DNA of 64,000 bases from Candidatus Hydrogenedentota bacterium (GTDB lineage Bacteria; Hydrogenedentota; Hydrogenedentia; Hydrogenedentales; JAJRTN01): NCBI GenBank assembly GCA_024278275.1, contig JAJRTN010000106.1, positions 1-64,000 on the forward strand, given 5' to 3'. The position numbers and the translations under genes were made by a program. Below, in pieces: positions 12,714 to 58,595 of this stretch. Under the pieces are notes generated by a model. It saw nothing but the letters and a program-made list of their open reading frames with translations. It made no database searches and was not told the origin of the DNA. Each line of letters begins with the position of its first letter. Position 1 is the stretch's first letter.

Positions 12714-13144
12714 GTCTGTTTGGTAATTCGCACCTATGTGACGTATCCGGGGTGAAGTTGGTTTACATTACCGGTGGAAACCTTTACGGAGCGTACACCC
12801 CGCCAGTGCCGCTACGGGTATTTGCCTTCTCCAAGCAACAGACCTTGAACGCGCGTAAAAGTTCGAGTCCAATTGGGGCCTGTCGCCCCACAGCCGGGGG
12901 CGGCTGTACCACATAAGGCGCCACAACCGGGGCGGCTGTACCACATAAGAGGAAGGCCTTTGGCTGTGTCGAGATCTCCTTCTTTGCCATCTCAGTCAAC
13001 ATATTACTGCACAATGACTTAGGCCCATCCCCCTCGAAAAGAGCAAACAAAATTAACGATCATGGTGTTAGTAGTACAAAGCACTTGACGCCTACGGTCG
13101 CGCGGGAAGCGCGACCCACCGGGTTCCCGGGAGGGGTGACAAAA
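12714..13144. repeat. repeat-bearing spacer upstream of the ECF gene
   Basis: No gene is supported. A copy of a dispersed element lies at about 12875-12914: GGGGCCTGTCGCCCC hairpin, then CAGCCGGGGGCGGCTGT and ACCACAT. It is the reverse complement of the element at 58198-58237 apart from a few bases, and it is followed at once by a shorter second copy (about 12921-12947). A GGTCGCGC/GCGCGACC hairpin (about 13096-13116) lies downstream of the mannose-6-phosphate isomerase gene and may help end its transcript, although it lacks a T-run. Confidence 0.55.
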
Positions 13145-38206: not shown

Positions 38207-38239
38207 ACGCTCCCACAATCCGACGTGGGAGCGTTTTTT
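38207..38239 (+). terminator. intrinsic terminator of the PEP-CTERM gene
   Basis: A 9-bp perfect stem ACGCTCCCA (38207-38215) / TGGGAGCGT (38226-38234) with a 10-nt loop is followed by a run of six T. It is 41 bp past the stop codon. Confidence 0.9.
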
Positions 38240-38379
38240 GTTGCCATGTCATTCCACCCGGGATCTTCACCGACTTGATTCCGTGGGACCGGCTGTGTTT
38301 AGATTCAGGCATGTGGAGCCGGGACGATTGTGTGTCTTGGCCCGAAAGTGAGATTGCACCGCAATAGGAGGATTGGATC

Positions 38380-38466
38380 ATGTTGGGTTGGTTAGGCGAT
38401 ATCTTTGACGCGATTTGGAATTTGATCGAAGACATTTTTGACTTCCTCTTCGGCTGGCTTTTCTAG
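38380..38466 (+). CDS. 28-residue acidic amphipathic peptide, new small gene
   Basis: ATG 38380 to TAG 38464-38466. A strong Shine-Dalgarno (AGGAGG, 38367-38372) lies 7 nt upstream, and an intrinsic terminator follows 35 bp later, so this reads as a complete one-gene transcript. The peptide begins MLGWLGDIF and ends FDFLFGWLF. It contains four Trp, five acidic and no basic residues, and its acidic residues recur every 3-4 positions, as on one face of an amphipathic or membrane helix. I know of no matching family. Possibilities are a membrane-active peptide, a type I toxin or a small regulatory membrane protein. A chance frame is possible but unlikely with these flanks. Confidence 0.6.
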   Translation: MLGWLGDIFDAIWNLIEDIFDFLFGWLF

Positions 38467-38501
38467 GAAAGACCGGAAGATTACAAATTCATCTTGTTGA
38501 G

Positions 38502-38532
38502 GGCAGGGCTTGATGCTCTGCCTTTCTTTTTC
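38502..38532 (+). terminator. intrinsic terminator after the small peptide gene
   Basis: GGCAGGGC (38502-38509) pairs with GCTCTGCC (38515-38522) with one G-U pair and a 5-nt loop. It is followed by TTTCTTTTTCT. It lies 35 bp past the small gene's stop. Confidence 0.85.
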
Positions 38533-38539
38533 TGTAACC

Positions 38540-38740
38540 GTTCATGCCCCTTAATAAACCGTCATTGCGAGACGCGAAGCGTTGGGCGAAAGGGAAAGTC
38601 CTCTTTTGTGAAAGCAGGGCGACAGGGCAGTATGAGGTGCGTTTCGATGCGCCATTTCTCATGTGGCACAGCCGCCCCCGACTGTGGAGCCGGCAGGCTC
38701 CCATTGGCCCCCCTATTGCCATCGCCTCGTCTCGCAGGGC
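38540..38740. repeat. intergenic dispersed repeats before aroF
   Basis: Contains the phrase CATTGCGAGACGCGAAGCG (about 38566), a type of element also seen in pieces near 10.0, 42.9 and 54.75 kb. It also has ATGTGGCACAGCCGCCCCCG (38661-38680) followed by ACTGTGG and a GAGCCGGCAGGCTCC hairpin, a member of the family found at 12.9 and 58.2 kb. No gene is supported between the small peptide terminator and aroF. Confidence 0.6.
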
Positions 38741-57988: not shown

Positions 57989-58595
57989 ATACAAAACACT
58001 CCGAGAAAAAACAGACTGGGATCGAGGGATTATACACATTCGAGGCCGGGTCGCGCAGAGGCAGCTTCAGTCCCTCCCTTCCGGCATTCCCGCAAAAGCG
58101 GGAAAGGGATATGGTGGGCCAAGGCCCACCCTACGAATTGAGAAAGGCCTTCTTCCAAGGGAGGCTGTTTCGTCGTCAAGGTTTCCGTCTTTTCTTATGT
58201 GGCACAGCCGCCCCCGGCTGTGGGCCGATAGGCCCCATTCCTCCACCGGGAGTAGAATACGTCTTGGTCTGGTGTGAAGCATGCTTGGTAAAACGCTTGT
58301 AAATGGAGCCCTTTCGGGCTCCACAGCCCCCGGTTCGGGCCGAGTACGGCCTACAGAGGGCGGCTGTGCCACATCTACTGTGCCGCCACATTTACTCTCC
58401 CCCCCCCCGGCGTAGCTGGAACCGAAAAGTTGACATCATTCCTGATCGTAAGGATACCCTATAAATACAGGCCCATAACGGTGTTGTGAAAAGTATTCCG
58501 CTCAAAATGAACTAAACTCAATTGCTAAGCGACCAGGGTGCGCATGAAGTGACGGCGCGCGTGTGGTACCATGGCATTGAGGAGGATACACGGAA
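57989..58595. repeat. repeat-rich divergent spacer between wecB and the pseudopilin gene
   Basis: Contains a third copy of the GGTGGGCC-AA-GGCCCACC palindrome (58113-58130), preceded by CCCGCAAAAGCGGG. It has a full copy of the ATGTGGCACAGCCGCCCCC element (58198-58237) and a partial inverted copy (about 58355-58375). A run of ten C lies at about 58399-58408. TTGACA (58430-58435) with a weak -10 at 58453-58458 could serve the pseudopilin gene. No gene is supported here. Confidence 0.6.

Follow-up and report, generated by a model that had tools for sequence, protein, structure and literature searches.

A 28-codon open reading frame (ORF) at positions 38380-38466 (+) of a 64,000-nt stretch of Hydrogenedentota DNA (hereafter, the window) is a real conserved coding sequence under purifying selection, accompanied by its own predicted transcription signals. 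The 28-residue peptide founds a microprotein family known to date only from Hydrogenedentota (68 genomes of the order and 318 others surveyed). With roughly even confidence, we read it as a stand-alone gene for an acidic amphipathic α-helix, i.e., a membrane-surface microprotein that probably self-associates and is made from its own short mRNA independently of its neighbors. The features of the locus are as follows.

38275-38305 (+): possible weak promoter, TTGATT-19-TAGATT, found by sequence inspection ~74 nt ahead of the ATG
38314-38344 (+): predicted stable 5′-UTR hairpin (z=-2.2 on folding the predicted UTR), present in the whole-transcript fold too
38366-38371 (+): Shine-Dalgarno (SD) sequence AGGAGG, read from the sequence, 8 nt ahead of the ATG
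38380-38466 (+): microprotein ORF, 28 amino acids, MLGWLGDIFDAIWNLIEDIFDFLFGWLF, with homologues in 7 other genomes, purifying selection, and helical periodicity
38446-38463 (+): C-terminal motif LFGWLF, with FGW invariant in the alignment of all nine copies
38499-38535 (+): intrinsic terminator of the microgene from the terminator scan, with its stem at 38499-38525 followed by a T-rich tail

Direct reading of the sequence identified an ATG start and a TAG stop. The unannotated short acidic ORF proposed in the first-pass annotation was borne out in its frame, its lack of Lys and Arg, and its five Asp/Glu residues (D7, D10, E17, D18, and D21), which also share one helical face as claimed, all within an arc of ~100 degrees (160 to 260 degrees) on the helical wheel. 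The peptide contains no Ser. It is rich in both Trp and Phe (the latter at positions 9, 20, 22, 24, and 28), with three Trp residues (positions 4, 13, and 26) instead of the four initially counted; similarly, the AGGAGG ribosome site lies upstream as described, at a gap of 8 nt rather than 7 nt. The terminator expected ~35 bp downstream was recovered 32 to 35 nt past the stop codon, and the location behind the terminator of a PEP-CTERM gene proved correct, as the upstream gene ends in a PEP-CTERM motif (PF07589) and has a separate terminator at 38207-38234. No other SD-led short ORF in the window is both acidic and free of Lys and Arg, and no SD-led ORF with zero Lys/Arg and at least four Asp/Glu arose in 40 simulated 64-kb sequences (first-order Markov; 2.56 Mb in all).

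Profile searches at an E value of <=1e-9 recovered nine copies in 8 of the 68 same-order genomes, and a protein search of 100 relatives also retrieved homologues. Seven of the eight carrying genomes, including that of the window, have a single copy, whereas G007 has two (G007a and G007b); G026, G037, and G014 encode further variants of the same form. Representative members are the following.

Window: MLGWLGDIFDAIWNLIEDIFDFLFGWLF
G030: MFDFIGDIFKAIFDFVEGVFDFLFGWIF
G034: MFIFDFIGDVFGWIFDFVEGVFNFLFGWIF
G063: MLDFVVDALGWMWDALLELLDFLFGWLPFF

The peptides typically end in FDFLFGW[LI]F-stop; G007b stops at GWL and lacks the terminal Phe. Six of the nine contain neither Lys nor Arg; the exceptions are G030 (one Lys), G014 (one Arg), and G007b (three Arg). 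Across three non-overlapping pairs (counts rounded), pN was 0.18 versus a pS of 0.58 (pN/pS of about 0.3; Fisher p≈1.5e-7), and differences at codon positions 1/2/3 over all pairs amounted to 384/189/538. Conservation in relatives and codon-position bias, which had been set beforehand as the refuting test, were thus both present and support the gene. The suggested search of related genomes for the peptide with its flanking signals gave a matching picture, i.e., nine copies, each with an AGGAG-type site and most with a terminator. Outside the order, 318 genomes yielded no convincing match, the best E value per genome (0.0018) being that expected by chance; matches outside the phylum (a CRISPR-like array in L007 and fragments of large ORFs) were dismissed on the same grounds. 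The order sampled appears to equal the entire phylum sampled, because the nearest relatives beyond it share only the domain. A scan of GTDB for the pattern F.FGW.F-stop pointed the same way: among the 117 matches listed, SD-led short ORFs of this type occurred only in Hydrogenedentota (L110 and L122), a further match in this phylum (L144) was doubtful, and 31 viral contigs carried none. The peptide has no Pfam or NCBIfam family at an E value of <=1 and no relative in the PDB beyond chance, and comparison with phage and plasmid protein families gave only chance-level profile or tblastn matches, in agreement with the original statement that it matches no known family. A literature search for FLFGWLF or FLFGWIF found no paper.

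An AGGAG-type site stands ahead of each of the nine copies, without variation in the genus-level alignment. Within one genus (G034, G026, G037, and G014), this alignment showed intergenic DNA that has diverged except for TTGnnn-17-TAACAT, the SD sequence, the ORF, and the terminator. Transcript starts are predictions throughout. Promoter-like hexamers with 17-nt spacers lie 88 to 100 nt before the ATG in these four genomes, with similar elements in G030 (TTGAAA-17-TATATT; 96 nt) and G063 (TTGACA-17-TAAACT; 92 nt); none was found upstream of either G007 copy, and a standard promoter scan of the window returned no sigma-70 site at 38275-38305. Six of the other eight copies (G030, G034, G026, G037, G014, and G063) have a terminator ~30 to 45 nt past the stop, G007b has a candidate ~100 nt downstream of the stop, and for G007a no terminator met the criteria. 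A 5′-UTR hairpin was predicted in all seven UTRs tested (z of -0.8 to -2.2; Stouffer sum of about -4.4), whereas equal-length control stretches further upstream averaged a z of about -0.3, except for the window's own control, which takes in the PEP-CTERM terminator. The hairpin sequences were too different to align for covariation, and RNAalifold on the sequence alignment of the four UTRs of the single genus gave no consensus structure. When the whole transcript of the window copy was folded, the SD sequence was predicted to pair with sequence past the stop, in a fold no better than shuffles (z of -0.8); several relatives had a region ahead of the SD sequence that was predicted to be open. Rfam matches were all subthreshold (SorX, 17.6 bits versus a cutoff of 46.6; U6atac, 16.2 versus 33). 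From these signals, the copies would be separate mini-genes, most with a σ70-like promoter about 90 to 100 nt upstream, a 5′-UTR hairpin, a strong SD sequence, and a terminator.

The hydrophobic moment peaked at 96 to 101 degrees in all nine peptides (p<=6e-4 each by shuffling), and beta periodicity was absent from every one of them. The helical-wheel check advised at the outset accordingly confirmed the acidic face and found α-helical amphipathicity throughout the family. AlphaFold modeled the G034 member, given the family alignment, as one helix (residues 2 to 27; mean pLDDT of 91), a fold that conveys little functional information for 30-mers. Interfacial partitioning is favorable for the nine peptides (-3.6 to -11.7 kcal/mol, helix formation not included), and transmembrane placement with charged acids is marginal for the window and G030 members (-1.1 and -0.3 kcal/mol, respectively) and more favorable for the others. 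The alternating Phe residues and the terminal Phe also recall the C-terminal beta-signal of outer membrane proteins; this reading was rejected because the periodicity is helical and G007b lacks the final Phe. An unannotated gene of an unknown family with the general form of a membrane-associated microprotein, as first proposed, agrees with the conservation, codon bias, helical periodicity, and lack of known relatives, and peptide physics would suggest a membrane-active or regulatory role.

Gene order in the window is formate-THF ligase, PEP-CTERM protein, microgene, dispersed repeat, DAHP synthase, and ScpB. The DAHP synthase gene (PF00793; 38916-39929) starts 390 bp past the microgene terminator. 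The gap before it holds a REP/MITE-like dispersed repeat (38555-38740; also at 12869-12917 and 58191-58239), and the segment 38540-38740 matches 53 places in its own genome, mostly through about 38630-38707. Elsewhere, the flanks consist of a PDZ lipoprotein upstream (in two genomes) and a solute-binding protein plus an ABC ATPase downstream in the genus of four, a beta-helix/GH141-like protein gene beside the G030 copy, a UvrD helicase ahead of G007b, and an exosortase-like gene next to G007a (L033:818-1798 (+); PF09721, E value of 1e-5, just under the cutoff). This exosortase-like gene and the PEP-CTERM neighbor in the window are probably a coincidental pairing, because the flank of no other copy showed it. 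In the genus of four, the gene immediately following the microgene, L030:5403-6731 (+) and its counterparts in G034, G037, and G014, shows in the alignment a conserved FxFxCxxCG-like start, possibly a zinc-binding N terminus. Comparison of the flanks revealed no shared or co-conserved neighbor across lineages; the neighbors differ, and the peptide therefore functions without a fixed one.

DAHP synthase is the first enzyme of aromatic amino-acid synthesis, and a Phe/Trp-rich ORF followed by a terminator and this gene is laid out like the trp/phe leader peptides, in which case ribosomes stalling at Phe/Trp codons would control the terminator. We nevertheless rejected such an attenuator as highly improbable. 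The synthase gene is distant and separated by the repeat, the Phe/Trp codons follow the helical periodicity with no run of regulatory codons, and the peptide itself is conserved, unlike those leaders, with no Rfam match at the gathering score; attenuation is unsupported because the downstream gene varies and the neighbors in other lineages are unrelated to aromatic synthesis. A membrane-depolarizing toxin of a type I toxin-antitoxin pair is a better candidate, albeit an unlikely one. With TisB, IbsC, Fst, and Lpt, the peptide shares a length of <60 residues, a hydrophobic helix, and a tiny, separate transcription unit, here with a 5′-UTR hairpin; the SD pairing with the 3′ part predicted in the window recalls some toxin mRNAs, although it does not exceed shuffles and the stretch upstream of the SD sequence is predicted to be open in several relatives. 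However, membrane type I toxins usually carry positive residues, mostly C terminal and with known exceptions (PMC8309996), whereas the window peptide is acidic and has none. Furthermore, no antitoxin RNA was seen, the genus alignment showed no conserved antisense unit or antisense promoter, there is no Pfam match to these toxins, and the single copy in most genomes and the strong amino-acid constraint also speak against a toxin.

We regard as similarly unlikely a secreted surfactant, signal, or bacteriocin-like peptide acting in the manner of phenol-soluble modulins. Phenol-soluble modulins and staphylococcal hemolytic peptides are, like the window peptide, short, leaderless, Phe-rich amphipathic helices. 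The peptide has an N-terminal Met and no signal peptide, and some other Hydrogenedentota microproteins of like form come as tandem pairs. Unlike the modulins, however, it is strongly acidic, matches no profile, and has no dedicated exporter and no conserved immunity or modification gene nearby. Slightly less unlikely is a regulatory peptide that uses its amphipathic face to bind a single conserved protein, e.g., an inner-membrane enzyme, a transporter, or a kinase. Many known small membrane proteins act by binding one protein partner, and the peptide's invariant FGW and its conserved polar positions exceed in specificity what generic lipid binding by a helix would require, but the flanks offer no co-conserved candidate. 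Corynebacterial PorA, PorH, and ProtX (45, 57, and 38 residues) are likewise very small, membrane-associated proteins without a signal sequence (PMC5310785); the window peptide has no positively charged n-region. They differ in that they are mycoloylated on Ser, a residue that the window peptide lacks, and the PorA/PorH channel needs two co-transcribed partners, whereas the window microgene is single. The likeness to these proteins is one of form.

In the favored reading, that of a membrane-surface microprotein, peptide physics suggests that the molecule would bind membranes and oligomerize. It would fold on the membrane surface, the Phe/Trp/Leu/Ile side immersed in lipid and the Asp/Glu side turned outward, anchored by hydrophobicity and Trp/Phe, with no electrostatic draw to anionic lipid expected because Lys and Arg are absent. 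Self-association would probably occur via the conserved FLFGW[LI]F end. The product, which would have a short mRNA to itself and would not act as a partner of adjacent genes, may serve as a membrane-coating, regulatory, or channel-forming oligomeric component of the envelope or membrane. Against the membrane part of this reading, an acidic helix is disfavored on anionic bilayers unless its acids are screened, protonated, or paired, and a protein partner would equally explain the conserved amphipathic face; against the transcript part, the window promoter is weak, the transcript starts are predictions, the hairpin lacks alignable covariation support, and the SD sequence of the window copy is predicted to pair past the stop, in a fold that does not exceed shuffles. 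Taken as a group, the rival explanations have about the same likelihood as the membrane-surface reading.

Hydrogenedentota encode further acidic, mostly Lys/Arg-free, SD-led microproteins, such as MFDIFDDAFDFIGDVFEFFVDLLGDILDFIIFFD (G040) and MDFADQLAEV... (G002). A second conserved microprotein family, starting with MNFINTILCW... and with the form MNFINTILCWVESIIG.IFGFLNNALGG.LGIQLPVPDFGCGEE, occurs in three genomes of one family (L217, L218, and L219). Tandem Lys/Arg-free hydrophobic microproteins, MVLTAFFTGLFDLLAGFLTEYVIGLLTGLITGALGLGA and MGADLATTVIGYMVAFFVELVLGGIFGFLGNLLFGGAGDPLA, are found at L221:655-979 (-) and L227:1255-1581 (+), a pair kept in two genomes of one genus (G009/G059), with an SD sequence for each and no Pfam match. 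G056 has tandem acidic microproteins at L019:1459-1739 (+), MGLLNVADWDLGG... and MDTRIDVFGLFGV..., the second with one Arg. These tandem pairs recall PorA/PorH co-transcription, in form only. None of the other acidic microproteins scanned matched Pfam. It would be a long shot, in our estimate, that the window peptide belongs to a phylum-wide repertoire of acidic, mostly Lys/Arg-free, leaderless α-helical microproteins, encoded singly or as tandem pairs, that assemble into non-beta-barrel channels or an envelope coat.

Annotation generally overlooks genes of such small size. The findings show that a conserved microprotein family outside Pfam and NCBIfam, whose gene signals are recoverable from sequence alone, exists in an uncultured phylum, and they point to a broader range of acidic amphipathic microproteins in Hydrogenedentota. 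If such microproteins do assemble in the envelope, they would represent an unusual means of building on membranes, one that uses neither lysine nor arginine.
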